64,000 nucleotides of DNA from Sulfobacillus thermosulfidooxidans DSM 9293 (GTDB lineage: Bacteria; Bacillota; Sulfobacillia; Sulfobacillales; Sulfobacillaceae), in the NCBI RefSeq assembly GCF_900176145.1, contig NZ_FWWY01000001.1, positions 1,225,819 to 1,289,818 on the forward strand, given 5' to 3'. Position 1 is the first letter of the stretch. Each line of letters begins with the position of its first letter. The notes below the pieces were generated by a model. It saw nothing but the letters and a program-made list of their open reading frames with translations. It was not told the DNA's origin and ran no database searches. The position numbers were made by a program, and so were the translations under genes. This document shows positions 10,797 to 29,092 of the stretch, piece by piece.

Positions 10797-12834
10797 TTAT
10801 GGTGCCGGAGATGATGGCATAGAGTAGATGTGCCACCAAGGGCGACGTTCTTGCTTATGCCGTTTAGCAATATAAAGGGCTTCATCAGCGTGAGAAATGA
10901 GGCGTTCAGGCTCGGCATGACCTGCGTCGAGGGGATAGAGGGTTAATCCTAGGCTTCCTTTAAGGGGAAAGGGAGAGGGCAAAGGAGGGACTTGGACAGG
11001 GGAGAGCACAGTTAACTTAAAGCGATTGAGACGGTGACGGAGCTCCGCATAGGAATGGATGTCGCTCAACACGATGAGAAATTCATCCGAGAAATTCATC
11101 CCCACCCCAGCGCGCTACGAGATCGGTTGGACGCAGACTTTTTTGCAGGCGTTGTCCCAATATGCGCAAGACAGCGTCGCCTGCGGCATGTCCCCAGGTG
11201 TCGTTAATGGTTTTAAAATTGTCCAAATCGAGTAAGGCAATGCCGACCCATTTTGTGTCTGAAGCCGTGGCTAATAACGCTGGCAACTGATCATAAACCG
11301 CGGAGCGGTTGAATAATTGCGTGAGGGTATCGTGCTGCGCTAACCATTGATGATGTTGTTTTTCTTGTTGGATCTTGCGGGTATTATCCCATGCATCCAA
11401 ACTTAGGGTGATAAGGCGGCCGATATGCACAATGAGGTCCACCACGGTTTCGTTGAACACATGCGGTTTTGAGGTGGTTAAGGACAATACCGCATAGCGC
11501 TCATTGCCGCGGTCAATCGGTACGGCGGCACCGGCGGCCCAGCCTTGGGCCTTTAAAAAGGCATGCCAGTCATCGGTTCCCGGCAACTGGTGATGGTGCT
11601 GATGAAGTTGGATGGTGCCCTGCTTCCACACCTTGGCTATTAACGGTCCATCATCATAAATACTGACAGGGTAATGCGATAATTGTTCAGTTCCCCAGCC
11701 GGCTGCGGCGACCAGTTGAAAGGTTCCTGAGGCATCAGGGCGGGCAATCCAAGCCGCCAAGAAAAGACCACTCGAAATCAGGTGATCACACACGGCTTGC
11801 AAGAGAGCCAGGTCGCTGCGCGGGCGAAATAGGGCCTGGACCGCGTTTAGCAAGGCATGATACAGGCGTTCAGCTGGTAACGTAGCTTCAGCAGGCACTG
11901 CGGTTTTAATTGTCGATGTCATGACCGTATGGATTTTATGGGCAATTTGTTGCCATAGGTCTTTTTGCGGTTGTTGCATAAAGTAGCGCGGGATCGGGCT
12001 AAAAAAAATACAAATCGTATAGGTATCTCTTGATCCTGTGGACTCGGTATGCAAGGGAAGAACAAAAGCAGATTGCCACCAGTGCGGAGAAACCGGCGTG
12101 TGGCGTGTATGGCACGCTCGGTTTTCTTTGTCACAAGCAATACCCCGGCCAATGATCCATTGTCCTTGACTACGCAAGTGTTGCAACCATTTTCGAAGAT
12201 CGTCTGGTGATATCTCTTTGATACCCATAAGGTGTTGGGTAATGAGCTGATCGTCTGTTTCAGACCATGATCCGATCCAAATTCCAGTTACGGCTTGAGA
12301 CTGGGTGAATAAGGCTAAGACTTCAGGTAATCCCATGGAAGCCTCATGCCGCTCCAATAAAGCGGTTACGTCCATGAGAATTTTCCATTCATGGTCCCGT
12401 CTTTTGGATAGTTCGGCATACTGAAATGATAAATCTTCCATGATAACCGGAAGAGATTGCAGAGCGTTCTCTTTGGTGTCCACTAAAGACTCTGGGGATT
12501 TAGCAAGCCACTGCGCTAAGTGCGATGAAGCCTGCGATAGACACCATAAGGGAAGTCCCATGCGCTCATAACGCAAGGCCAATTGTTTTGCCCGCATCAT
12601 CCGGGTTTTCAGAGTAGAATTTTGCACAACAGCTTCTACATACCGCTCATGAATGTGCAACAGGTCGATTTTTTGGGCTTCACTTGCCCGGTTCCACAAG
12701 CTTTGGACTGCACGATGCTCTCGCAAATGGCCGTAGAAGTCTAAAACGAACTGCCGAATAGCGTCATCTGCGGACCCATGTGCCTTGTCCGTCATGCGTA
12801 GTGTTTTTGGTGATAGGACGCGATCAGTTTTCAT
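10797..12834 (-). pseudogene. GAF-GGDEF diguanylate cyclase broken inside GGDEF
   Basis: The ancestral protein was ~680 residues. Residues ~25-130 form an all-helical N-terminus resembling globin-coupled sensors ([11 protein letters not shown] is like the HARIGVP helix, with Tyr at the heme His position; tentative). GAF-like regions follow (~185-300 and 340-470). The GGDEF domain starts at [10 protein letters not shown] with [21 protein letters not shown]. The reading frame runs through RWGGDEFLG and stops. In another frame the rest of the domain continues from DEFLIVLSD to the end at 10797 (SLGLTLYP, HADEALYIAK). The cause is a perfect 13-bp tandem duplication at 11076-11101. The product is cut at its active site. 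The promoter side faces the ABC operon. Confidence 0.9.
11076..11101. repeat. 13-bp tandem duplication at the GGDEF codons
   Basis: GAGAAATTCATCC occurs twice head to tail (11076-11088 and 11089-11101). Removing one copy restores [12 protein letters not shown] in frame. It is 13 bases long, so it shifts the frame by one. Confidence 0.95.
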
Positions 12835-13928: not shown

Positions 13929-14968
13929 AAGCCTATGGAGCGTTAGTGTGGGCGAATACGATGATGTTACTTAGGGCCCGAGATGCATTGTTTTGGACGT
14001 TTGCATTTCCCATCGTGTTTATGGTGTTAATTGGCACAGCTTTTGGTCAAAATCCTAGTTTTTCTGCACATATCGGTATTGAAGGGCAGGGCATGGCCCG
14101 TGGGGCTTTGATTTCTGCTTTGCATCATGTGCCAGGAATGAAAGTAAGCCTAATGACCTCAGGTCTCGCGGCGTTAAAATCGGGACAAATCGCTTTATTG
14201 GTGGAGATTTCACGACGCCATCTCACCTTGGTGACTACCAATGATCCGACTTCGCAAACGGCGTTATCCGTTTTGCAAGGCGTGATTACGACGATGAATC
14301 TTAAGGCTCTACACGCTCCTATCATGTTTCACACGACGATTCGTCACATCCACGTCCACGGGACGTCCTATATCGACTTTTTAGCGCCGGGTATTTTAGG
14401 GATGACGTTAATGAATACCGGCCTGTTTTCCGGTACCAGCCTCATTACCTACCGAAGCCAAGGGATATTGCGGCGGATTCGCGGTACCCCCTTGCCTACC
14501 TCAACCTTTATTGCGGCGAGGATGACCACCCAGATGATCATGGCTCTGGCGCAAGCGTTTTTGATTCTGAGTGTGGCCGAAGGGTTATATCACTTTAAGC
14601 CAGCAGGCCATCTCTTGGCCATGATTCCCTTTCTAATTTTAGGTGAGTTGGCGTTTATGACGGTGGGTTTCTTGATTGCCGGGGTTGCCAATACCATGGA
14701 GCTGGCTACAGCATTGACGAATATCATTAGCTTGCCGATGATGTTCTTAGCGGGAGTCTTTTATCCGGTAAGCCAATTGCCGTCCTTTGTGCGGCCCCTG
14801 GCTAATGTGTTACCCCTAAGATTTTTAACGAGTGGCTTACGGGGGGTTGTGGTTCACGGGACGTCTTTGAGTCATTTAGGGAGTGATCTGATGGCACTGG
14901 CCTTAACAGGATTATTAGCAGGGGCTTTGGCGGTGAAGTTCTTCCGGTGGGAAACGCCACATGTTTAG
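13925..14968 (+). CDS. ABC-2 type exporter, permease
   Basis: 347 residues. One N-terminal TM helix (~18-36), an extracytoplasmic segment of ~130 residues, then five TM helices (~160-345), the usual ABC-2 membrane plan. GVFYPVSQLPSFVRPLANVLPLRFLTSGLR near the end is split here as GVFYPVSQLP and LPLRFLTSGLR, the family's conserved last loop. It overlaps the ATPase by 4 bases and the kinase by 8, so the operon is tightly coupled. Confidence 0.9.
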   Translation: MKAYGALVWANTMMLLRARDALFWTFAFPIVFMVLIGTAFGQNPSFSAHIGIEGQGMARGALISALHHVPGMKVSLMTSGLAALKSGQIALLVEISRRHLTLVTTNDPTSQTALSVLQGVITTMNLKALHAPIMFHTTIRHIHVHGTSYIDFLAPGILGMTLMNTGLFSGTSLITYRSQGILRRIRGTPLPTSTFIAARMTTQMIMALAQAFLILSVAEGLYHFKPAGHLLAMIPFLILGELAFMTVGFLIAGVANTMELATALTNIISLPMMFLAGVFYPVSQLPSFVRPLANVLPLRFLTSGLRGVVVHGTSLSHLGSDLMALALTGLLAGALAVKFFRWETPHV

Positions 14969-15582
14969 AGGCAATTTGACCGTCTTGCGGATTATGCGCT
15001 TAGCCATCTTATTATTACCGTTGTCTGCGTCATTAATCATGGGTCAGCCCCATTTTTGGCCCTTTGGCGTTGTGGACCTGGTGTTTAGTGTGGCCATGGC
15101 GATGGCACCCTTTCTTAACATTTGGGATCACGAACCTTATACGAGCTGGTGGTTAATCATCGAAGTGATTATGGGTTCGTTCGTCTCCTATAATCTGCAA
15201 GGAGCTGGCGTATTTGCCCCGTTTGTCATCTCCAGTGATCTGGGCTTTAGTGTTTGGCCCAATAAGGTGTTGGGCATTGTGGATACGTATCTGGGCATTG
15301 CCGCTACCTATAGTGCTGTGGGTTCACCCAGCCGCGATGCTCTCATGATTGATACGGTCTTTGGTCTTGTGTTTATTTTGGCCATGTGGAGCAATAGCCA
15401 AAGCACGCGTCAGACGCGTGCTTTGCACAAAGCCTATACGGCCTTACAACGTGCCAGGGAGCAAGAAAAGGAACTCATTAAATTACAAGAACGCGAACGC
15501 ATTGCGCAAAACTTGCACGATGTCTTGGGCCATTCTTTGACCCTTATCGTACTCAAAGCCGAATTAATCCGGGAACATTTGA
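14961..15582 (+). pseudogene. DesK-like sensor kinase, 5' half (split by IS)
   Basis: N-terminal ~207 residues of a HisKA_3 sensor kinase: four to five TM helices (to ~155), a coiled linker, then the H-box ERERIAQNLHDVLGHSLT with the phospho-acceptor His. At 15582 an IS1634-type element enters. The current frame runs ~24 codons into the IS. Removing the IS and one ATTTGA copy joins HL to KRTQWNKGQEE in frame and gives a 385-residue kinase with the half at 17393-17928. The kinase would sense envelope stress for the ABC exporter (inference). Confidence 0.92.
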
Positions 15583-17386
15583 CTCCTCTTCCGCACGTGA
15601 TGGGTGAAAGCAGAGGAATTTATCCCGAGGGTCTCGATGGCACCTGCGTGTAAATCGTGTCTGTGAAACCCAAGGCGGCCAAAATGGCCGCTACCGGCTG
15701 GGTGTGAACCGCCGGGACAAAGAGTTGACGGGTCTGAGCATCGAGGGGCATGACAATGAGTCCACGCAGATGATGTAACACTTCCTGCCCGGTGGGCCGC
15801 GCCAATAGACCACGGGTTGGCGTGGGAAGGGGCGGGGCCTGCCGAGCCCGGCGTTCGATGAGGCTGAGCACCAATGCGGCGAGCAAGAGCACATAGCCTA
15901 AGGCCTCGACCCGTTCCGGCTTTTGCACATAGAGCGCATCCACAAAGGTCGGATCTTTTAAAAAGCGAAAGCGTTGTTCAATGACCGTCTGCCCTTTGTA
16001 TTCTTCGAGCAATCGGCGGGCATCAAAAGGCGTGGAGGGCAGATTCGTGATGAGCACAAAGGTCGCTGCGCGGTCCTGTGCGGCCTGCACGCGTTGCGCA
16101 TCGACCGCCCCGATGGTGGGACGGACCCGGTATACCGTGGTGGTGGCCGGATCGGGCGCATCGTGGCGAGGACGCCCGCGAGTCGCGCGTTGGGTGACTT
16201 GTGTTTCCGCGACGACCGTCGCTTCGACATGATGCCATTGCGCGGTAGCCTGCCAAGCGGCCACGGCCGCTTCGGCATCATGAGCACAGGCAAACACGGT
16301 CCCCGCGAGGCGAGTCGCTGCCCGGGTTAACTGATCATAGGCCCGGTCGATCTGGCGGGCGATGGTGTGAGCTTTTCGCTCAGCCAGATGATCGGAACGA
16401 TAAACCACAAGGCGATAGGATCGACCCTCAATGTGGCCGGTCTGTTCTGCGGCCGCATAGGAAGTGGCATCGGTACGCTCCCCGATTTTGCCGAGGGGAA
16501 CCCAGGCGTTGGCCGCCAAGGCGGCCGTTTTCGCCTCTTGCGCCGCCCGAAAGGTATCCGGACAACGCGAGAGAAAGCGGAGCGAACGATCAGCCATCGC
16601 CTTTAAGTTGGGGCCCGTGACGAGAGCGGAATCGGCCACATAGACGAGTTGTTGGAGTTGCTGGGGCGAAAAGTAATCGTCTAAGGCCGCAATCATCTCG
16701 GCATTGAGGGTTTTATCACTCAGATTCCCGTCTTGCACCGTGCCCACCACGGGAATGCCTTCCCGGGTCCCCAATAGCGTCAGAAGAATTTGGCGGAGAT
16801 CGGGACGATGATCCTTGGAATGGCCATAGGTGGGATGCACTCCGCTTGCCGAGTCAGGGTCCGGATACGTGCCATAGACCGAGCGAGTCGTACTATCCCA
16901 GTGGACAAACACCGGATGATCGGGCGTCCACACGTGGTCGTGCACGAGGGCTCGCGTTGCGACGGCACTGAAAACGGTGGCACCGCCGGCCGCGGCGACT
17001 TTGTCCAAAGCGCGTCCGAGCGCGTCATCGGTAAAATCGGCCGCGGTGCGGCCGGATCCAAATAATAAGGGCACATCGGTCAACTGAAATTGCTCGTGAA
17101 CGCGATACAGCGGTTGACGAGCGGTGAGCAAATTGACGATAAGCGCGAAAATCCGTTCACCGGGCGACAGATGGCAACGCTGCGCATCCCACGCCACGGT
17201 CTGATTCACGGCCTCGACTAATCCGATTTCCTCACAGAGGGCCCGGATGACCGGTCCGGCTCCCACAACGAGCGGTGTAGGCATTGGTGTGTTCATAAGA
17301 GATTACTTCGCCATGCAAGGCACTATCTCCTTTGCGATCAGCCCCAAAAAAATAATTTTTTGTTCTCACCACGTGCGGAAGGTAAG
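15583..17386 (-). mobile_element. IS1634/IS4-type insertion sequence
   Basis: 1804 bp with imperfect terminal inverted repeats: CTCCTCTTCCGCACGTG at the left, and CTTACCTTCCGCACGTG read inward from the right (14 of 17 match). It is flanked by a 6-bp target duplication ATTTGA (15577-15582 and 17387-17392). It carries one transposase. Base composition is richer in GC than the kinase it interrupts. Confidence 0.9.
15620..17296 (-). CDS. IS1634-family DDE transposase (DUF4277)
   Basis: 558 residues, full length for the family. DUF4277-like N-terminus (~10-110), then an IS4-type DDE core: VHWDSTTRSVYG (first Asp, ~135), YVADSALVTG (second Asp, ~227) and a C-terminal EYKGQTVIEQRFRFLKDP with the YREQ-like Glu (~435-450). 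Function: cut-and-paste transposition of the surrounding element. No frameshift or stop, so it is likely active. Inserted antisense in the sensor kinase. Confidence 0.93.
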   Translation of the reverse strand: MNTPMPTPLVVGAGPVIRALCEEIGLVEAVNQTVAWDAQRCHLSPGERIFALIVNLLTARQPLYRVHEQFQLTDVPLLFGSGRTAADFTDDALGRALDKVAAAGGATVFSAVATRALVHDHVWTPDHPVFVHWDSTTRSVYGTYPDPDSASGVHPTYGHSKDHRPDLRQILLTLLGTREGIPVVGTVQDGNLSDKTLNAEMIAALDDYFSPQQLQQLVYVADSALVTGPNLKAMADRSLRFLSRCPDTFRAAQEAKTAALAANAWVPLGKIGERTDATSYAAAEQTGHIEGRSYRLVVYRSDHLAERKAHTIARQIDRAYDQLTRAATRLAGTVFACAHDAEAAVAAWQATAQWHHVEATVVAETQVTQRATRGRPRHDAPDPATTTVYRVRPTIGAVDAQRVQAAQDRAATFVLITNLPSTPFDARRLLEEYKGQTVIEQRFRFLKDPTFVDALYVQKPERVEALGYVLLLAALVLSLIERRARQAPPLPTPTRGLLARPTGQEVLHHLRGLIVMPLDAQTRQLFVPAVHTQPVAAILAALGFTDTIYTQVPSRPSG

Positions 17387-17392
17387 ATTTGA

Positions 17393-17928
17393 AACGGACC
17401 CAATGGAATAAGGGCCAGGAAGAAACCGAGTCGTTATTAGGGATCGCCCGCCGTTCTTTGGATGAAGTGCGGCAGGTGGTTGAGACATTGCCAAGTTATA
17501 CTCCTGTCTTCGATATGGTTAATGAACTGAAGCGGGCTAAGATTGAGACCACGTTAGATTGGAATCCCCCTGTGACAGCGAGTCCTCGACTTCAGGCGGA
17601 TTGGGATTTGATTTTGCGAGAAGGGATTACAAATATTCTGCGTCATGCCCACGCCAGCACCGTTCGTATTCAACTCAGGGGCGATGATAACGGCTGGACA
17701 TTGGTCATTGAAGATAATGGGAAAGGGTTCAGTCAAGCCCATGGGCACGGACTTCAAGGAATAAAAAGTCGGGCCGCAAAATGGAATGGAAAAGTGGATA
17801 TTATAAGCTTTCCGGAGCAGGGCACATCCCTTGTGATCACAGGAGAATTTGTTGAGGTCTCAAAAGGAGCGTGCGAAGACATCTATGATTCGGATTATGA
17901 TTATCGAAGACCAATCTCTGGTGCGTGA
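17393..17928 (+). pseudogene. DesK-like sensor kinase, 3' half
   Basis: C-terminal ~178 residues of the split kinase: end of the dimerisation helix (EETESLLGIARRSLDEVRQ), then the ATPase domain with N-box ILREGITNILRHAHAS, G1 EDNGKGF and G2 HGLQGIKSR. It could be translated from the TTG at 17389 but lacks the phospho-His, so it cannot work alone. It overlaps the response-regulator gene region. Confidence 0.92.
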
Positions 17929-19846: not shown

Positions 19847-20905
19847 TTACACATAATGACTAAGTATGAGGCGCAGCATGTTCCAGAAATTCTTTGTCTT
19901 TTCGCCGGAAAAATAGCCGGGCCAGGGACTAAAGACCACGAGCACAGGGGAATGCAGAACGTGATGAGGATTTATCGGCCATAGCCCCACCGCACGGGGG
20001 GATACAAAGGGGGGGCGATGAACGCTGTCGGGACTGGCAGATGGGAGGTTGCGGAATATAACCTGTCCTTCGCTTCGGGTTTGGTGAATTAGGGAATCAA
20101 TGTCTAAAGACTCCGGGACACGGCGGGGTATAGCGCCAGCAAGGACGTGCCCCGTGTGGTAGGAATCTTGTTCATCCACTAACACGATGCCAGTAAGCTG
20201 TTCACGCTGCTGGAGTTCACGGAATATCTCGCGAAGATCTGTGGATATCCCTGGCGCCGGACTAAAAGAGGTGATGTGGGCAAGAGTTCTGGCTAGGACA
20301 TCCCAGCGCCAAGTGTCCATCCCTTGATAGGCTTGCCACTGAAGATGCAAGCCTCTAATTAACCGCTTAGTGATTAACAAGCGAAGACTGTGATGTTCCC
20401 ATGAGTTGTCAGGCAAGATGCGCTGCAACGTTTGCCATTCCAGCTGAAAGAATTTCAGCATAATGTGTGCAGGCCATCCTTCTACGAATAAGGCTTTTCC
20501 ACGCTGAAGTCCTACAGCTTGTCCTGGTGAAGAAGGAAATGGGGATGACAAAAGGTGCTGCAAGTAGTCCCGGTGACGATTTTTAAGGAATTCAAAATCG
20601 GACGGTGTCAAATCATGGCCCATGGCATTGATTGCATGATCGATTTGGATAGTGTTGTAACAAAATTCGACCGCCTCATGAATATATTGGTCCCTCAAAT
20701 GACCATTCCACATATCCCATAAATTCGTAGGATTTGGACCGTGATGGTCTTCTACATGGTTGACCAAAGCTGGGCTATCTTCACAATGGGTAAAAAGATC
20801 CATGGCAGCTGTCGTTAGTTCCCTCTTCATCCGGTCTAAAATCTCTTCGACCTGTTCAATGGATTCAAGTAATAACGTTTGTAACGGCATCGGATATACG
20901 CTCAT
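19847..20905 (-). CDS. Stand-alone sensor protein (globin-like plus GAF-like)
   Basis: 352 residues. Residues ~1-130 are helical with HRDYLQHLLSSPF, ~135-210 helical (EWQTLQRIL), ~230-350 GAF-like (REQLTGIVLVDEQDSY, GLWPINP, LVVFSPWPGYF). The order and spacing mirror the N-terminal half of the broken cyclase at 10797-12834, but no GGDEF or other output domain follows before the stop. Inference: a sensor partner working by protein contact, or a cyclase that has lost its output. Exact fold is uncertain. Confidence 0.55.
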   Translation of the reverse strand: MSVYPMPLQTLLLESIEQVEEILDRMKRELTTAAMDLFTHCEDSPALVNHVEDHHGPNPTNLWDMWNGHLRDQYIHEAVEFCYNTIQIDHAINAMGHDLTPSDFEFLKNRHRDYLQHLLSSPFPSSPGQAVGLQRGKALFVEGWPAHIMLKFFQLEWQTLQRILPDNSWEHHSLRLLITKRLIRGLHLQWQAYQGMDTWRWDVLARTLAHITSFSPAPGISTDLREIFRELQQREQLTGIVLVDEQDSYHTGHVLAGAIPRRVPESLDIDSLIHQTRSEGQVIFRNLPSASPDSVHRPPFVSPRAVGLWPINPHHVLHSPVLVVFSPWPGYFSGEKTKNFWNMLRLILSHYV

Positions 20906-21641
20906 AAGACATCCCTGTTGTATGTGACATTGCCCGAAACAATGGGTGAAATTATAAGTTTCTTCCCTTTTATGTGGGTGCTTGTAACATCAAGAAATTT
21001 TTTGTTCTCACATATTCTCTATGATCTTCTCTTTACTACGTTTCGTAAAATTTCTCTCCGCTATGATTCCCACTACTGTCACCATAATCGGTGGGTATGT
21101 CGGGTTTGTTACATGGTTATGACAATAATTGAGCGAGATGTTACACCATGGTGGATGGTGATACCAAAAAGCCATTCAGTTATCGTGCGGAAACGACTTA
21201 CTACCGAATCCCCGGGAAGAGAGACATTAATATCCCTTTGGAAGTCTTTTGCAAAAACCCAGTGTTTGTCTCAAAGACCCAGGTTACGTGAGCCGAAAAG
21301 GAATAAAAGACAGCTGGACAGTCCACACGATGTGATTTCGTGATTCGCCTCTGTATTGTGACTGGCGAACTTTCTCAGTCGATAAGCTCTTTTAGTGAAA
21401 ACTCAAAGATTTATGCGTTCAAAATCATGGGATTTGACGCAGTCATGGAGGATGATCTTGTTCCATCGTTTACCCTATAGGTGACAGGGTTCGACGATTT
21501 CCGCAAGGACAAATCGTCATTCATAAGGCTCACCCTTTTTCTAGCGAACTCATGTTGTCAAATGTGTGTCATTCCCCCGTAGCACAGAGGAAATCATTCC
21601 TTGTTATTTTGAGGAAGCAAGAATGTTAGGAGAATGTTGAG
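20906..21641. other. Long divergent intergenic region
   Basis: 736 bp between the sensor gene and the response regulator. Possible frames lack ribosome sites and known motifs. It holds a hairpin at 21493-21518 and the AGGAGAATG ribosome site of the regulator. Confidence 0.5.
21493..21518 (+). other. Hairpin with GCAA tetraloop in the regulator leader
   Basis: GACGATTTCC-GCAA-GG-AC-AAATCGTC: 10 bp of stem closed by a GNRA loop with a two-base bulge, 124 bases before the start at 21642. A possible structured leader element; no riboswitch family recognised. Confidence 0.4.
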
Positions 21642-22376
21642 ATGGCGGGACAACAAAGTATCAACATTTTAGTTGTGGCAGAAAGAGAACGTGACCGTCT
21701 CACCTGGTCTGCCGCGTTGGAGCATTTTGGACTGACGGTGATCCATGTTGCCACAGGGCACGACGGCATTCGCGAATTACGCCAAGGTGGGATTGATGTC
21801 GTCATCTTGGAACGCCGCATTTCTGATCCGCATGGGCTGATTGTCTGTCAGGAAATGCGGCGCCATTCTGCTACACCGATTGTGATGATTGCCGATACTT
21901 TCGACGAATGGGATGAAGTGGCGGCTTTTCGGATGGGTGCTAGTGACTATCTGACCAAACCTGTGGCTATTGGACGCTTACTATCGCGCATTTACCGGCT
22001 TGCACGGGCAGGGCCGCACATTGCCGATGCGGCACGTGATGCGGATGAGTTCCTGGTTTATCTGGACCAACAAATTGTGTCATTTAAAGGACACGAATTG
22101 ACGTTGTCGGCCCGGGAAACCAAGTTATTGGAAGTGCTCTTTAAGGCCCCCAAAGTCATTCTGACCCGGGAGAGTCTCTTAGATCAAGTCTGGGGTTTGG
22201 AATCGTTAGATTTGGAAGTGCGCACGGTTGATGTCGCCATTGCCCGTTTGCGAAAAAAACTTCAAGACCATTTTTCTATTAATCCGATTGAAACCGTTAT
22301 CGGCACGGGCTATCGGTATCGATCGGACGTCTTGCGGGTACGGTTTGTGACATCCCAGGAGGTGATCTCGTCATGA
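21642..22376 (+). CDS. OmpR-type response regulator with atypical receiver
   Basis: 244 residues: receiver (1-118) and winged-helix DNA-binding domain (~140-235, LSARETKLLEVLFKAP, VRTVDVAIARLRKKL, VIGTGYRY). The receiver lacks its phosphorylation chemistry. The N-terminal acidic pair reads AERE (residues 11-14), and the phospho-acceptor is Glu57 (VVILERRI) in place of Asp. The switch Lys106 in YLTKP is kept. Glu here often mimics phosphorylation, so it may be constitutively on (inference). It overlaps the next gene by 4 bases (ATGA), so the two work together. Confidence 0.87.
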   Translation: MAGQQSINILVVAERERDRLTWSAALEHFGLTVIHVATGHDGIRELRQGGIDVVILERRISDPHGLIVCQEMRRHSATPIVMIADTFDEWDEVAAFRMGASDYLTKPVAIGRLLSRIYRLARAGPHIADAARDADEFLVYLDQQIVSFKGHELTLSARETKLLEVLFKAPKVILTRESLLDQVWGLESLDLEVRTVDVAIARLRKKLQDHFSINPIETVIGTGYRYRSDVLRVRFVTSQEVISS

Positions 22377-23590
22377 ACGATAAATTATGGGATCCAAGTC
22401 GCGCACGATTTCAAACGCGTGCACGCATCTTGCTACACCATTTAACCCTACTGAAAAATCTTTGGACCTTGGGCCCTATGACCGAACGCGAAGTCCGAAC
22501 ATTATGGTTTTATTTATTTCAACTCGCGGGAACGGGAGTGGCCTTAGACTATTCTGACATTATTCCAGGAGCCCGCGGATTTTTAGAGTGGGTTCAAGAA
22601 ACCGTTAGGCAAGGCAGCATGAGAGGAGAGGAATTTCAACAACGCTTGGATCAATTTCTTGAGATACCCCGTCACCTGATTGCGGGTCAAGAAATGGCAC
22701 CGGAGTCTTCCGCTCAGGTGGTGTGGGGAGATCGCCTTGTCGTTGTGGATAATAAGCCTACGCTGTTGTGGGAAAAGGCTCTCCGTCAACATGCGGTTTC
22801 TATTTTCACGATGCCGTTTTCTCCAACCCAGGTATTGCGCACAGCACGAATCATGCGTCCTCACATGATTCTATTAAACGCTGCCAGCCCTGTGCGTGAA
22901 CTCGAGTCATTGTGTGCTGTTTTACGTGACGACCGCCGGTTAGACGGAACCGCAGTCTATCTCTATGTGCGTGCGGAACAAAGCGAACTGCCCGCGAAAC
23001 TCTTGCGTCATATTGATGGACTTATCACCGATTACGAACGTTCTGAGTCCATGGCTGCCCAGATTCTTGGGATCTTGGCGCGGGTCAATCAACGCCGGGA
23101 ATCAAGTATTTGGGATCCGTATACGGATCTTTATTCTCTGGCGTATTTGCGAGAACGGTTAGAAGAAGAAATACTGCGGCAGCAACGGCAACCAACACGC
23201 TTAGGCATTATTGCTCTCACGTGGGATCCGCGAAGTGTCCATACGATGGATGAGGAACCTGGTCGAACCTATCTGATTATCCGGCGTCTGGCCGAGTATT
23301 TACAGTCTCAGATTCGGCGTTCAGATGTCGTCGCGTACGACGGGATGGGGCGATTTTATTTAGTGCTTTTCGAGGCTAATCGCCGGGTGATATCCGAGCG
23401 AACGAAAATGATACAACAACAAATTCGTACTGAGACCGACATGGGGCTTGGGTCTTTGCTCACAGGCATGGCTTTGGCACCCGATCATGGTAACGTTCCC
23501 GAAGATTTATTTACCCATGCCGACCGCGCTTTATGGGACGAATTAGAACAGGCTACGGTTCCGTCCTCGTTATCAACGTTATCTCCCTAA
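22373..23590 (+). CDS. Degenerate HPt-receiver-GGDEF protein
   Basis: 405 residues. Residues ~35-100 resemble an HPt domain (LFQLAGTGVALDYSDI), but Phe49 sits where the phospho-His should be. Residues ~120-232 resemble a receiver (RLVVVDNKPTLLWEKAL) with Asn169 in place of the phospho-Asp. Residues ~245-395 are a GGDEF fold (DPYTDLYSLAYLRERL) whose signature is GMGRF (324-328), so no cyclase activity is expected. All three modules keep their fold and none keeps its chemistry. Coupled to the atypical regulator upstream. Likely a scaffold or c-di-GMP/GTP-independent adaptor (inference). Confidence 0.75.
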   Translation: MNDKLWDPSRARFQTRARILLHHLTLLKNLWTLGPMTEREVRTLWFYLFQLAGTGVALDYSDIIPGARGFLEWVQETVRQGSMRGEEFQQRLDQFLEIPRHLIAGQEMAPESSAQVVWGDRLVVVDNKPTLLWEKALRQHAVSIFTMPFSPTQVLRTARIMRPHMILLNAASPVRELESLCAVLRDDRRLDGTAVYLYVRAEQSELPAKLLRHIDGLITDYERSESMAAQILGILARVNQRRESSIWDPYTDLYSLAYLRERLEEEILRQQRQPTRLGIIALTWDPRSVHTMDEEPGRTYLIIRRLAEYLQSQIRRSDVVAYDGMGRFYLVLFEANRRVISERTKMIQQQIRTETDMGLGSLLTGMALAPDHGNVPEDLFTHADRALWDELEQATVPSSLSTLSP

Positions 23591-23793
23591 AGGGTTTTTT
23601 GTGAGGTTGTCGGACCTTGTTGTGAAGAGGTTTCCTCTAGGCAATTTACCAGATGAATTAGAGATACGTGAATGAAAAGAGGTGGTGTACCCAGCACATT
23701 TTGGCTCTCTTTTATTTGAGCCAATTACGGTGACGGAGACGAAGAAGTCTTAAGGTGACAATTCCCAAGCGGCACATGATAAGGAGTTTGACA

Positions 23794-25467
23794 ATGATAG
23801 AAGATTTTACCATGACAATACTCATGAATATGACCGATGGTGTCTATCTAGTAGATCCAGAGTCAAAGCGTCTGGTTTTTGGCAATCCTGTCCTTTTAAC
23901 AATGCTGGGTTATGGAAAGGATGAACTGAAGGAATTAACCATCTACGATCTGATTGTGAGTGACAAGGATCGGATTGATTCTTACCTGCAGCGGGCCTTT
24001 AAGAAATGTCGCCTGCATATTCGCGAGGGAGTGTTCCGCCATAAAATCGGAACGTTAAAGAAACTGGAAATTCACGCCACTCCATGTTGGGGACATGATC
24101 AATCATTGTTGTTCGTGCTCGTTAGAGAAGTGACAGGCAATGTGGATGCATCTAGTACTCCCTCTTCTTTTCAAAAGGCAGGGGAATACGACCGAGATCC
24201 ATTAACTGGCTTGATGACACGCTGGGCTTTTCAACAAAAAATCCAAGAAAGCCTAGGCACTACAACCCAGGGAACCTTATTTTGGTTGGACATTTCCCAT
24301 TTTGTGGATATCAACAAGGATCACGGCTTTTTAATGGGGGATAGCATCCTGAAAATGTTCGCCGAGCGGCTGCAACATAGTCTCCAAGGTGACGCCATAA
24401 TGGCACGGATTGCCGATGATGAATTTGCGTTATGGTCCCCTTATGACCGGGACGCATTGATGGTCGCCCACACCATCCTTCATGCGGTGACCCGTCCTTA
24501 CCTCGTCGATGATGATTTTCTCCGTTTAACCGTGTCTATGGGGGTTGTGCGCTATCCTGAAGATGGCGTCCATGTTGACGCCTTGTTCAGCCATGCGTTA
24601 GAAGCCTTGTGCCAGGCCAAAGAGGTTGTGGGGAACACCATTTGTTCGTTTGATGCGCAATATCATCAAGACAATTTGCTGCGGGTCAGCTTGAAGAGTC
24701 AAATTCCCAAGGCTCTTGAAAATCAGGAATTTCGCTTGGTTTATCAACCCCAGATTGACATCCAGACGAAAACATTGATTGGTATGGAAGCGCTGGCCCG
24801 CTGGGAAATGCAAAGAGGCACGATGGTGCCGCCTGGTCAGTTTATTCCCATTATGGAACAAATGGGATTGATTGGCGCATTTGGCACATGGGTTATGAAA
24901 ACCGCCTGTGTCCAAAACAAAACCTGGCAAAATGCCGGATTAAGGGCCATTAAAATGGCTGTGAATGTCTCAGCCCAACAGTTTTCCGACAATCAGTTGA
25001 TGGCGGCGGTTGAAGAAGCATTGGCTGTGAGTGGATTAGATCCGCAGTGGATTGAGCTCGAAATTACAGAAGGTACAGCCATGCAAGATATTGAGCGAAC
25101 GCGAGCTGTACTACGAGATTTGAAAAATGTTGGGATCAATGTGGTCCTGGATGATTTCGGGACGGGATTCTCATCGCTAGCCTATTTAAAAAATCTCCCC
25201 TTGGATGGTTTAAAAATCGATCTGAGCTTTATTCAACAACTTCCCCATAGTGCCACCGATAGAGCGATTGTGATCGCGATTCTTAAGATGGCCAAGGTTC
25301 TCAATCTATACGTGATTGCGGAAGGAGTAGAGACTGCAGCGCAACTTGACTTCTTACAAGATGAAGGCTGTGACATGGCACAGGGGTACTTCATTAGCCC
25401 TCCGAAACCGGCTCGGGACCTAGAACCGTTGTGGGATGAAATGGGACAACGCTCGCAAGTACAATGA
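23794..25467 (+). CDS. PAS-GGDEF-EAL c-di-GMP phosphodiesterase
   Basis: 557 residues from ATG 23794 (AAGGAG seven bases upstream; earlier codons lack a site). PAS domain ~1-110. GGDEF ~130-290 with a degenerate signature ADDEF (207-211) and LDISHFVDINKDHG. EAL ~305-550 with MEALARW (332), MAVNVSAQQ, LEITEG, VLDDFGTGFSSL, LKIDLSFI, AEGVET and AQGYFISPP, all catalytic residues present. Expected activity: hydrolysis of c-di-GMP, with the dead GGDEF as a possible GTP-binding control domain. Third gene of the group that starts at 21642, with a 203-bp gap. Confidence 0.9.
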   Translation: MIEDFTMTILMNMTDGVYLVDPESKRLVFGNPVLLTMLGYGKDELKELTIYDLIVSDKDRIDSYLQRAFKKCRLHIREGVFRHKIGTLKKLEIHATPCWGHDQSLLFVLVREVTGNVDASSTPSSFQKAGEYDRDPLTGLMTRWAFQQKIQESLGTTTQGTLFWLDISHFVDINKDHGFLMGDSILKMFAERLQHSLQGDAIMARIADDEFALWSPYDRDALMVAHTILHAVTRPYLVDDDFLRLTVSMGVVRYPEDGVHVDALFSHALEALCQAKEVVGNTICSFDAQYHQDNLLRVSLKSQIPKALENQEFRLVYQPQIDIQTKTLIGMEALARWEMQRGTMVPPGQFIPIMEQMGLIGAFGTWVMKTACVQNKTWQNAGLRAIKMAVNVSAQQFSDNQLMAAVEEALAVSGLDPQWIELEITEGTAMQDIERTRAVLRDLKNVGINVVLDDFGTGFSSLAYLKNLPLDGLKIDLSFIQQLPHSATDRAIVIAILKMAKVLNLYVIAEGVETAAQLDFLQDEGCDMAQGYFISPPKPARDLEPLWDEMGQRSQVQ

Positions 25468-25708: not shown

Positions 25709-25756
25709 ATGGAAGACGTATCGCTAATGAGGTGGGTTATGTGCCAGCATGGATAG
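25709..25756 (+). CDS. Possible 15-residue leader peptide
   Basis: ATG with AAGGAG seven bases upstream and TAG at 25754. It overlaps the start of the DUF342 gene in another frame, so translation of one could feed the other. No homology can be judged. Confidence 0.3.
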   Translation: MEDVSLMRWVMCQHG

Positions 25757-26718
25757 CACGAATTCGGGACACGGTGAAAAATATGGTCCGGGGATTTCAT
25801 ACGTCATTACACCAGGTGAGTCATCTCGCCGGATTTTTGCCTGGGCGCCACGAGGCATCGGGACGGATTTGGATTGATGACGATGGTCATGTCCACGTGC
25901 AAAATCCCCGCGCACTCCATGGACTATATCCTGTCATCCTGGTTCCGCCCGCGGAAAGTGGGATTACTGTCGAAGTCAATGGACAAAAGGCCAGAGGGAA
26001 TGAAATCGTTGTGCAAGCCTCAGATCAGATTGTGATTGACACCATTCCCCAGCCACCCCTTTCCCGTTTCGACGTCCATGTCGATGACGCGGGCATGTCC
26101 GCCGTATTGACCGTAGAATATCGTATGGGACTGACTCGTCTGATTGAATCCACGGAGCCCGCAACCCGTCTGGTTATTCCGGTAAAAACTCAGATGGAAT
26201 CTCCTCGACCTATCACCGTAGAGGAGGTCCTTAGCGAGTTAAATCGTATAGGCATTCACAACGATCGTGTGGATTATGCAGCACTCCTGGATTTTGTCAA
26301 TCGACAAAAGTCAGGTTCGGTCACTGTGGCTCTAGGCATTCCGGCCGTTTCCGGCACCAGTGAATCCTATCAACCCTTGCCGCTAGAGACAAAGACTCGG
26401 TATTACCGGGGAGTGGCTGTTGATCGCCCAGAATTTGTAGAAATTGGCGAAATTATCGGGATTTTGGTTCCGGGTGAGGCTTCCCATCCCGGGATTACCG
26501 TGTGGGGTACGCCTATTCTCCCCACTCCTCCTCCTCCCAATATGTTTAAACTTGGTGATGGTGTCGAGATGATGGAACGTGGGATGCACTTGGTGGCGAC
26601 CCGTAGCGGTCGGGTTCGGTGGGAACCTGGCAGTGTGCGGGTGATTCCTGAAAAAATCCATGTAGGCCCTGTGCGAAAGACATTGACCTACGATGGGGAT
26701 TTAATCATTGAAGGAGAC
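25741..26718 (+). pseudogene. DUF342/FapA-like protein, 5' part (split by IS110)
   Basis: 326 codons from GTG 25741 (GAGG at 25730). A basic N-terminus is followed by a FapA N-terminal-like region (~30-120) and the start of the beta-helical DUF342 domain (GDGVEMMERGMHLVATRSGRV, here cut to GDGVEMMERG and RSGRV; YDGDLIIEGD). At 26718 the IS110 element begins. Joining 26718 to 28256 gives IIEGD-VQGKVTV in frame and a 604-residue protein. Family: FapA-like polymers linked to flagella, cell surface or c-di-GMP-linked functions; exact role unknown. Confidence 0.85.
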
Positions 26719-26740
26719 ACCCATGCCCCGAATTCGGGGC

Positions 26741-26976
26741 ACCCACGGATATGAAAAAAGGGAGTGAGTTGCGCTATGCTGAAGACAGCCTTCGGCCGAG
26801 ATCGGTTTCTCTCTGATGCTGCGAGCTCGCGAAGGAGACGGAGTCCGGCCTCGTTGAGCACCCCCGATTGTTGCGCTCCGTCGGCTTGCGCCGACGGGTA
26901 GCACGCACAGGAGAATTCGTCAGCGCTCCGAGGCTGCCGGAGGCCTGATTATTCTACACGCGTTGAGGTGAGTCGC
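26741..26976 (+). ncRNA. Candidate bridge RNA of the IS110 element
   Basis: Non-coding, GC-rich and able to fold: CCGTCGGC-TTGC-GCCGACGG (26878-26897) is a perfect stem-loop, and CTCCG/CGGAG forms another near 26926-26942. It holds GAAGGAGACG (26831-26840), identical over 10 bases to the rebuilt target (26710-26718 joined to 28256). It also holds CACAGGAGA (26906-26914), identical to the element's right end at 28246-28254. In IS110 systems (established for IS621) a bridge RNA has one loop that reads the target and one that reads the donor, both containing the core. The right-side guides were not found by eye. Ends of the RNA are unknown. Confidence 0.65.
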
Positions 26977-28212
26977 ATGGACTTAGAGGTTGTGGTCACT
27001 CATGGCGCCGGGTTGGACGTCCACAAGAAGGTCATTGTCGCCACGGTGTTGACGCCGACGGTGAACGAGACGCGGTCGTTTGGCACCCTCACCCCCGATC
27101 TCTTGGCGTTAGCGGATTGGCTCCAATCCTGTGGGGTCACGCACGTGGCGATGGAAGCGACCGGAGTGTATTGGAAGCCCGTGGTCAACTTGTTGGAGGC
27201 GTATCCCTTTGAGGCCGTAATGGTCGTCAATCCCCAGCACATTAAGGGCATGCCGGGGCGGAAGACCGACGTGCAGGACTCGCAGTGGATTGCCGGGTTG
27301 CTCCGGATTGGCGCGTTGAAGGCCAGCTATATTCCGCCGCGTCCGCAGCGGGAGCTGCGGGAGATCGTGCGCTATCGGACGAGCCTACAGCAAGCCCGCG
27401 CCACGGAAGCCAACCGGATCCAAAAGGTGTTGGAAGGGGCTAATGTCAAACTCGGGAGCGTCATCAGCGATGTGTTGGGCGTTACCGGCCAGCGGATTCT
27501 CGCCGCCTTGGCGGACGGCGAGACCGACCCGACGGCTCTGGCCGATTTGGCCGATCCCCGGATCCGCGCCTCCCGGGACACCCTGATCCAGGCCTTGACC
27601 GGCTTGGTGACGGCCCATCAGCGCTTGATGCTCCGCGTACAGCTCCAGCATGTGGCCTTTTTGGATCGCCAGATTGCGGCGCTGTCGGAGGAAATCGCCA
27701 CGCGCCTCGAAAATTTTGACGACGCCCTCGCCCGCTTGCAAACCATCCCTGGGGTCGAGCGTCGTACCGCCGAGATCATTATCGCCGAGATTGGGACCGA
27801 TTTGCAACGGTTCCCGTCCGCCGGGCATCTGGTCTCCTGGGCCGGCTTCAGCCCCGGACAGCACGAGAGTGCGGGGAAAGCCCGACCGACGCGCACCCGC
27901 AAGGGCAGTAAAGCGCTGCGGGCCGCCTTGACCCAAAGTGGCCACGCCGCCGGCAAGACCCGGACCTATCTGGGGGCGGTGTATCACCGCCTCGCCGGCC
28001 GCCGCGGGAAGCAACGCGCGGCTGTGGCGACGGGACGCCACATCTTGATCGCGGTGTATGCGATCTTGCGGACCCCGGGGGCTGTCTACGAAGATTTGGG
28101 CGCTACCTATTTTGATCAGCGGGATCGGCAGGCCCTGGTCCGCCGGGAAATTCGCCGGCTCGAAGCCTTGGGTTATCGGGTGCGGGTGGAGCCGACCTCG
28201 CAGGCGGGCTAA
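26977..28212 (+). CDS. IS110-family transposase (RuvC-like recombinase)
   Basis: 411 residues from ATG 26977 (GAGGTGA five bases upstream). N-terminal RuvC-like DEDD domain: GLDVHKK (Asp ~14), MEATGVYW (Glu), GRKTDVQDSQW (Asp). A central coiled helix follows. The C-terminal Tnp domain has IPGVERRTAEIIIAEIG and SAGHLVSWAGFSPG with the conserved catalytic Ser. Length and motifs are complete, so it is probably active. Known chemistry: RNA-guided recombination through a circular form. The upstream candidate bridge RNA lies directly before it. Confidence 0.94.
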   Translation: MDLEVVVTHGAGLDVHKKVIVATVLTPTVNETRSFGTLTPDLLALADWLQSCGVTHVAMEATGVYWKPVVNLLEAYPFEAVMVVNPQHIKGMPGRKTDVQDSQWIAGLLRIGALKASYIPPRPQRELREIVRYRTSLQQARATEANRIQKVLEGANVKLGSVISDVLGVTGQRILAALADGETDPTALADLADPRIRASRDTLIQALTGLVTAHQRLMLRVQLQHVAFLDRQIAALSEEIATRLENFDDALARLQTIPGVERRTAEIIIAEIGTDLQRFPSAGHLVSWAGFSPGQHESAGKARPTRTRKGSKALRAALTQSGHAAGKTRTYLGAVYHRLAGRRGKQRAAVATGRHILIAVYAILRTPGAVYEDLGATYFDQRDRQALVRREIRRLEALGYRVRVEPTSQAG

Positions 28213-28255
28213 CACTACCGGCGGTGCTCACCGGAATCTATTTTTCACAGGAGAC

Positions 28256-29092
28256 GTCCAAGGAAAAGTTACGGTTGTGGCTTCTGGACAGATCATCGTC
28301 ACGGGATCGGTGATGAATGCGGAAATTGTGGCCAAGGAACAAGTCTGGATTTTTGGCGAAACGCAAGGAACCGTCATCTATTCAGGTCATAAGGCGGTGG
28401 GTGATCAGGATGTCCAGCAACAATTGCGCCGATTAAATGAAGTTTTATGGATATTGGAGCACGGTTACCACCAAGTGTGTGAACGGATGCCTGAGACCCC
28501 GGTTGTGCCGGGTAAAATTTTTGCATGGCTGGTTCAAACAAAATTTCCGGAATGGCGCTCATTGGTCCAGTGGTTAGAGAAAATGCGGTCGCGTTCTCCC
28601 TACCGAAAAAATCCGGATCTCCGCCTGTTGGTCGAAGACATTTTGCCTTTGATTGAGCGAGAGCAATTGTTTCACATTCAGGATGTTACCCTGCTCGAGC
28701 GTATTCATGAAGGCATTCAGCACTATATGGATGCAGCTCAGCACTCGGAGCAAGGTGAACAGCTATCCGGGGTATATTTGAAAGTCGCTGTTCACACGAT
28801 GATTCGCAGTTTAGGATCTGTCACGCTGCAAGACGCGCGCTTATGCGACATTGAATCGGGTGAGTCCGTGGATATCAGTGGGCAAATGATTGGGGGCAAT
28901 ATCACGGCGCAAGAGAGCATAACCGCGCGTATTTTGGGCTCAGAAGAAGGGATTGATACCTTGGTTTCGGTTGTAAATCCTAATGGGTGGATTCGCAGTC
29001 ATGTGATATACCCGCAGACCGTAGTGCAAATTGGCACCTATACGGAAGATTTCACTACAGCTATGACGGATGTTGTGATCGACCAAGTGTGA
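28256..29092 (+). pseudogene. DUF342/FapA-like protein, 3' part
   Basis: 278 residues continuing the split gene: the rest of the beta-helix (VQGKVTVVASGQIIVTGSV, then AKEQVWIFGETQGTVIYSG), a helical segment (~95-190) and a final beta-rich section (VTLQDARLCDIESGESVDIS). It is followed by a terminator hairpin. It has no ribosome site of its own. Confidence 0.85.

Follow-up and report, generated by a model that had tools for sequence, protein, structure and literature searches.

A degenerate active site combined with an intact I-site is a known pattern of c-di-GMP receptors and, for the degenerate GGDEF protein SgmT, binding of c-di-GMP has been shown and depends on the I-site arginine (PMC3509222). 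Loss of phosphorylated residues from two-component proteins is documented as well. In a 2025 review, the phospho-accepting aspartate is given as missing in 2.0% of the receivers and the histidine in 0.9% of the Hpt domains sampled (PMC12632262), while a further source names glutamate as the most frequent replacement of the aspartate (26%; PMC4395418). In the same review the switching mechanisms of bacterial pseudo-receivers are described as still a mystery (PMC12632262).

The gene pair described here is located in a stretch of 64,000 nucleotides from Sulfobacillus thermosulfidooxidans DSM 9293 (contig NZ_FWWY01000001.1), which was analysed as a whole and is referred to as the window. The frames of both genes are intact, and the stop codon of the regulator gene (21642-22376) overlaps the start codon of the second gene (22373-23590) within the sequence ATGA. 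The pair comprises the following features:

21642..22376, + strand: OmpR/PhoB-family regulator of 244 amino acids, assigned by Pfam matches and sequence; receiver domain at residues 9-117, winged-helix DNA-binding domain at residues 150-225
21810-21812, + strand: codon of Glu57 of the regulator
22373..23590, + strand: second gene, encoding the partner protein of 405 amino acids with HPt-like bundle, receiver-like domain and GGDEF-fold domain without catalytic motif
22394..22687, + strand: HPt-like four-helix bundle, residues 8-105 of the partner (AF2, structure and profile comparison)
22517-22519, + strand: codon of Phe49 of the partner, at the phospho-His position
22727..23080, + strand: receiver-like domain, residues about 119-236 of the partner (AF2, alignment with PleD, WspR and DgcR)
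22877-22879, + strand: codon of Asn169 of the partner, at the phospho-Asp position, where strand 3 ends
23105..23557, + strand: GGDEF-fold domain, residues 245-395 of the partner (Pfam, structure comparison)
23315-23326, + strand: RRSD of the partner, an RxxD I-site motif
23342-23356, + strand: GMGRF of the partner in place of GGDEF

The regulator is recognised by the Pfam models Response_reg (58.8 bits, cut-off 30.2) and Trans_reg_C (74.3 bits, cut-off 26.2), and RegX3, MtrA and PrrA rank as the closest PDB relatives of its family profile. Its five receiver active-site positions are occupied by Ala13, Glu14, Glu57, Ala84 and Lys106. Both the phospho-acceptor aspartate and the acidic pair of the phosphorylated OmpR/PhoB kind are absent (Glu57, Ala13-Glu14). 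A first-pass annotation of the window had denied the regulator any acidic pocket, which is slightly too strong as Glu14 and Lys106 remain; the other acid is indeed replaced by Ala13. Being matched by the Pfam receiver model without possessing the conserved aspartate, the regulator fits the Asp-less or pseudo-receiver class. Within the window's genome it is the sole exception, the phospho-site aspartate being present in 28 of the 29 receiver domains found with the Response_reg model, which points to more than chance. An exchange of aspartate for glutamate can mimic phosphorylation but is often insufficient. We would like to add that G041, one of the genomes considered below, encodes a further regulator from the same subfamily on contig 25 (L076:5399-6300), which carries histidine at the phospho-Asp position as well as an in-frame TAG, and near which MotB-, FliG- and EAL-like genes can be read.

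In the partner of the window, Pfam reports neither Hpt nor Response_reg, and GGDEF alone exceeds its cut-off (39.7 bits), so that the assignment of the HPt-like and receiver-like domains rests on structure and profile comparison. An AF2 model computed from four orthologues (mean pLDDT 74.5) comprises a bundle of four helices, a receiver-like alpha/beta domain (residues about 119-240) and a GGDEF fold; modelled alone, the bundle reaches a pLDDT of 81.5. The top natural structural match of the bundle is Thermotoga CheA P1 (1tqg; Z 12.5, rmsd 2.6, 105 aligned residues), with residues 4-108 of the model falling on residues 0-104 of the chain, by arithmetic without any gap. We take the phosphorylated histidine of this P1 domain to be residue 45, which puts Phe49 on its position. 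Behind it comes Salmonella CheA P1 (Z 11.3), whose histidine, counted along the alignment, is residue 48 and corresponds to model residue 48 or 49; several CheA P1 chains are found among the matches. Designed bundles take the first rank and several other places among the matches, and a number of them are presumably redesigns of CheA P1; in one of them, 6ff6, the alignment reveals a CheA-like sequence. An hhalign profile comparison, in which the bundle was set against 28 Hpt stretches from the order, likewise places Phe49 on the histidine, with a probability of 1.2% and a P value of 0.046 which is not significant alone. In no member of the family is there a Pfam Hpt match above the cut-off of 24.6 (best 9.1 bits, E 2, in G041). 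Since Z values below 13 are common among helical bundles and those of the bundle lie just below the level advised for them, we consider an HPt fold likely but not proven.

The GGDEF-fold domain is superimposable on that of PaMorA (Z 19.9, rmsd 1.8, 146 aligned residues), and residues 119-395 of the partner match the receiver plus GGDEF fold of PleD, WspR and DgcR (9g85, 3bre, 6zxm). The GG[DE]EF motif and the Mg-binding aspartate of diguanylate cyclases are missing, their places being taken by GMGRF and Thr283 in the window, and neither is present in any of the five family members. In the alignment with the T. maritima cyclase, its RRSD falls on that of the partner, with GGDEF then at the same spacing; the I-site mutant of this cyclase deposited in the PDB is changed at the first arginine, which is aligned with Arg315 of the partner. 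Comparison with 25 other GGDEF domains, which form part of a longer list of matches, indicates that RxxD is near-universal (arginine in 24/25, aspartate in 25/25), so that its retention could be structural. Yet the second G, the D/E and the E of GGDEF are equally constant in these 25 domains and have been lost in the family of the pair, while Arg315 and Asp318 of the RxxD motif are kept in all five members. With an active site in 0/5 and RxxD in 5/5 members the partner displays, by its sequence, the degenerate-GGDEF receptor pattern of the PopA/SgmT type.

Full-length relatives were retrieved by a single-sequence search of 101 related genomes from G003 (80%), the sister genome of the same genus, and from G016, G021 and G041 (about 30%); G000 denotes the window's own genome. 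The family thus has five members, distributed across two families of organisms, two members being from one genus. The pair is rare: with the window's genome included, five genomes possess it, out of 42 in the order and 154 in the class; in the genus it is present in two of eight. Twelve of the 42 order genomes passed the threshold of E 0.001, and seven were dropped as their matches covered the receiver region only (19.6-24.9 bits); the five genomes counted are also rows of the search profile, having first been found with the single sequence. A phylum sample of 398 genomes yielded just the window's own pair and one weak match to the receiver region. In all five orthologous loci the regulator gene lies directly upstream of the partner gene and overlaps it.

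Listed in the order G000, G003, G016, G021 and G041, with key residues identical in three MAFFT modes, the site residue of the regulator is E, E, E, E and D, and its acidic pair reads AE, AE, SQ, SR and SG, a full acidic triad being found in none of the five. In the partner, the HPt position is occupied by F, F, L, F and H and the subsequent residue by Q, Q, H, H and E. The phospho-histidine, absent from the window's bundle, is thus encountered at its own column solely in G041. The second receiver site, which holds aspartate in 0/5, reads N, H, N, S and R, with the G003 residue appearing as Gln in another alignment. The GGDEF motif is replaced by GMGRF, GMGRF, GAGRF, GAGRW and PAGMA. Judging from these residues no member possesses a working cyclase site or a second-receiver aspartate. 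Total and uniform loss in all orthologues has to be rejected: G041 keeps both the HPt histidine (in the context HEIQG) and the regulator aspartate, its metal-binding pair being gone (Ser, Gly).

Between G000 and G003, at a dS near 1, the regulator has a dN/dS of 0.045 and the partner one of 0.10; the three domains of the partner, taken singly, give 0.14, 0.09 and 0.08, and eight other nearby gene pairs range from 0.07 to 0.17. The pair is hence under ordinary purifying selection, in contrast to neighbours which are disrupted in G000 and complete in G003. With frames intact in five genomes and a low dN/dS, we also reject the view that the pair is a pseudogene or a sequencing artefact. The partner proteins of the distant lineages are only 25-37% identical and show the same kind of loss.

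These results bear on the remaining statements of the first-pass annotation. Sequence, Pfam and AF2 bear out its description of a pair with Glu57, Phe49, Asn169 and GMGRF in overlapping, intact frames, and its view that the HPt-like, receiver-like and GGDEF folds and the DNA-binding domain remain agrees with the AF2 model and the Trans_reg_C match, respectively. As to the conservation of the four replacements, which it had proposed to examine, Glu57 recurs in four of five members and the loss of the GGDEF site in all of them; Phe49 is found in only three and Asn169 in only two. Orthologues with normal residues, named there as evidence to the contrary, exist in so far as G041 has the HPt histidine and the regulator aspartate, while a normal GGDEF motif is found in 0/5. 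The claim that simple decay does not explain the pair holds, because the pair has been kept together in five genomes, is under purifying selection, has lost the cyclase site and the second aspartate in 5/5 members and has exchanged the regulator aspartate for glutamate in 4/5. Its idea of a phosphorylation-free device is partly supported: G041 has His and Asp, though neither pocket acid in its regulator, and a histidine stands at position 50 in G016 and G021. The retention of RxxD in 5/5 members and the c-di-GMP gene context, neither of which the annotation brings up, suggest that the device reads c-di-GMP and is not only phosphorylation-free.

This context comprises the following features of the window:

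21471..21488, + strand: candidate control site TACCCTATAGGTGACAGG (part of ACCCT-N9-AGGGT); the sister genome has the identical sequence upstream of its own pair
23755..25467, + strand: downstream gene of a PAS-GGDEF-EAL protein, by its sequence a probable c-di-GMP phosphodiesterase
25732..26754, + strand: 5' part of a FapA/DUF342 gene (FapA_N, 61 bits), fourth in the cluster and disrupted by an insertion element
28058..29092, + strand: reading frame that contains the 3' portion of this FapA/DUF342 gene, the same sequence continuing in the G003 protein

In G000, G003 and G016 the gene order is regulator, partner, EAL gene and FapA/DUF342 gene; in G021 the contig ends after the EAL gene. Directly behind the partner gene, an EAL gene is thus present in four of five loci, and what we take to be the catalytic EAL motifs can be read in the proteins of the window, G003, G016 and G021. 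In the fifth locus, that of G041, the pair is succeeded by MCP, CheB, CheR and GGDEF-EAL genes, and genes for CheA and a CheY-like protein are located about 17 kb away on the same contig. FapA is therefore present in three of the four loci able to show it, the other having chemotaxis genes. In G003 the FapA gene is whole (L079:13129-14952). Since it is broken by an insertion element in the window's genome, the pathway may be incomplete there; the transposase gene within it (26968-28212, inside 25732-29092) is, by reading, of the IS110 type. The candidate control site has no further exact copy in either genome, and a single site with three mismatches is found in G000. We do not claim a regulon on the basis of the conserved upstream box, as a reversed control pattern gave as many or more matches.

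Several observations concern the wider surroundings. Positions 10060-32000 of the window form a dense c-di-GMP neighbourhood, with several EAL- or GGDEF-like genes in about 20 kb, partly identified by reading. A GGDEF protein gene (10797-12834, minus strand) is present in two frames split at the GGDEF motif, reflecting a frameshift or a sequencing error, and is covered by one frame of 753 amino acids in G003. By reading, a transposase-like gene (15620-17296, minus strand) appears to interrupt a sensor-kinase-like gene (14961-17928); in G003 this place is taken by a single frame of 389 amino acids, followed, as in the window, by a NarL-like regulator. A divergent protein of 352 amino acids (19847-20905, minus strand) has no Pfam or NCBIfam match and shares 55% identity with its G003 counterpart; its gene is the fastest-evolving of those compared (dN/dS 0.17).

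On the grounds of the gene overlap, the folds (that of the HPt-like bundle being likely), the dead catalytic and phospho-sites, the I-site motif, the intact DNA-binding domain, the purifying selection and the EAL neighbour, all of them apparent from sequence or model, we tentatively propose, with a probability of roughly 0.45, that the locus encodes a pseudo two-component pair: a transcription factor acting independently of phosphorylation would be controlled by a catalytically dead scaffold that reads c-di-GMP. The regulator would be a Glu-bearing OmpR-family transcription factor whose receiver is no longer phosphorylated and serves protein contact and dimerisation. Its translationally coupled partner would be the scaffold, composed of a CheA-P1-like bundle without histidine, a pseudo-receiver and a pseudo-GGDEF domain, the retained I-site (RxxD) of which would bind c-di-GMP. 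The c-di-GMP-bound state would determine whether the scaffold holds or frees the regulator, perhaps via contact at the old HPt-receiver interface. The adjacent EAL protein, if active, would lower c-di-GMP and close the loop, and the pair may be autoregulated. Weighing against this proposal are the near-universal occurrence of RxxD, the small family of five, the His and Asp of G041, the His50 of G016 and G021 and the broken FapA gene of the window's genome. A more far-reaching version regards the locus as a whole phosphorelay (HPt, receiver and DNA-binding regulator) converted to a phosphate-free switch. In it, c-di-GMP at the pseudo-GGDEF domain would control, by way of the old HPt-receiver interface, a Glu-receiver transcription factor that is constitutively competent, and the G041 pair with its remaining His and Asp would represent an intermediate. 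We consider this version speculative and on balance rather unlikely.

The role assigned to c-di-GMP is the point at which the most serious alternative departs, which we consider unlikely but far from negligible. According to it, contact alone keeps the Glu-regulator on the HPt-like and receiver-like domains while the pseudo-GGDEF domain is just a module for dimerisation or docking and binds no c-di-GMP. The dead phospho-sites are in line with this, the near-universal RxxD motif (arginine in 24/25 domains compared) is unspecific, and pseudo-receivers are known as constitutively active or otherwise controlled (PMC12632262). It leaves unexplained, however, why Arg315 and Asp318 are kept in 5/5 members while adjacent active-site residues are lost, and why an EAL gene adjoins the pair in 4/5 loci. 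We regard it as distinctly improbable that a phosphorelay is hidden in the family, i.e. that some members still phosphorylate, that of the window being an extreme case or phosphorylated at another place. The His (HEIQG) and Asp of G041, the His50 of G016 and G021 and the location of the G041 pair among MCP, CheB and CheR genes, with CheA on the same contig, would be accounted for. The acids of a receiver pocket, however, normally bind the metal required for phosphotransfer, and both are gone from the G041 regulator (Ser, Gly); moreover, the window and its sister lack a histidine at position 49 or 50 as well as the aspartate.

Slow decay, in which a former phosphorelay and cyclase are being lost and have no coherent present function, would agree with the patchy distribution (5/42 order and 2/8 genus genomes) and with the interrupted FapA gene and broken signalling genes nearby. 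We nevertheless judge it very unlikely in view of a dN/dS of 0.045 and 0.10 at a dS near 1, of frames open in five genomes from two families and of the same kind of loss in lineages whose partners have diverged to 25-37% identity. Slighter still is the probability that the N-terminal domain is an unrelated four-helix sensor, which would render the comparison of Phe49 accidental. The Hpt match below cut-off in every member and Z values of a size common for helical bundles would permit this; against it, CheA P1 is the top natural match, ungapped over 105 residues and succeeded by more CheA P1 chains, and the profile register independently sets Phe49 on the histidine, exactly where G041 has its own.

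Preferring, as stated, a scaffold that reads c-di-GMP, we consider the pair a compact test case: the gene for the putative switch is adjacent, this switch has a candidate ligand site, and in G041 phospho-residues are still present. Because of these three properties, it can be tested directly in which order the residues were lost and whether contact or c-di-GMP has taken the place of phosphate. Literature searches for the combination did not find such a pair described and, among the matches listed, did not find a count above 0 for Hpt-Rec-GGDEF or Hpt-GGDEF; as far as these searches go, the single elements are already known while their combination in one coupled pair with retained I-site is undescribed. 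The bundle has its closest natural structure in CheA P1 (1tqg, 1i5n), from which it differs in that the His position is without histidine in 4/5 members and the partner protein is without a kinase. Over residues ~119-395 the partner resembles the diguanylate cyclases PleD, WspR and DgcR in having a receiver plus GGDEF fold, but is devoid of their catalytic residues and phospho-Asp. PopA has a receiver-GGDEF architecture and, to our knowledge, neither possesses an HPt-like bundle nor is encoded beside an Asp-less transcription factor; nor do we know of any coupled partner of ChxR with degenerate HPt, receiver and GGDEF domains. PopA of Caulobacter, as named in the SgmT report, shares with the partner the degenerate active site and intact I-site and is a c-di-GMP receptor (PMC3509222). 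ChxR of Chlamydia trachomatis and other Asp-less receivers resemble the regulator as OmpR-family proteins with Glu at the phospho-Asp position; they are described as active without phosphorylation (PMC4395418, PMC12632262, PMC3960148). In SgmT/DigR of Myxococcus xanthus, likewise, a protein with a GGDEF domain whose active site is degenerate and whose RxxD is intact works together with a DNA-binding response regulator as a second protein; SgmT, however, is an active histidine kinase which phosphorylates DigR and the two genes are orphans, whereas in the present pair no kinase domain was found, the phospho-sites are lost and the genes overlap (PMC3509222).
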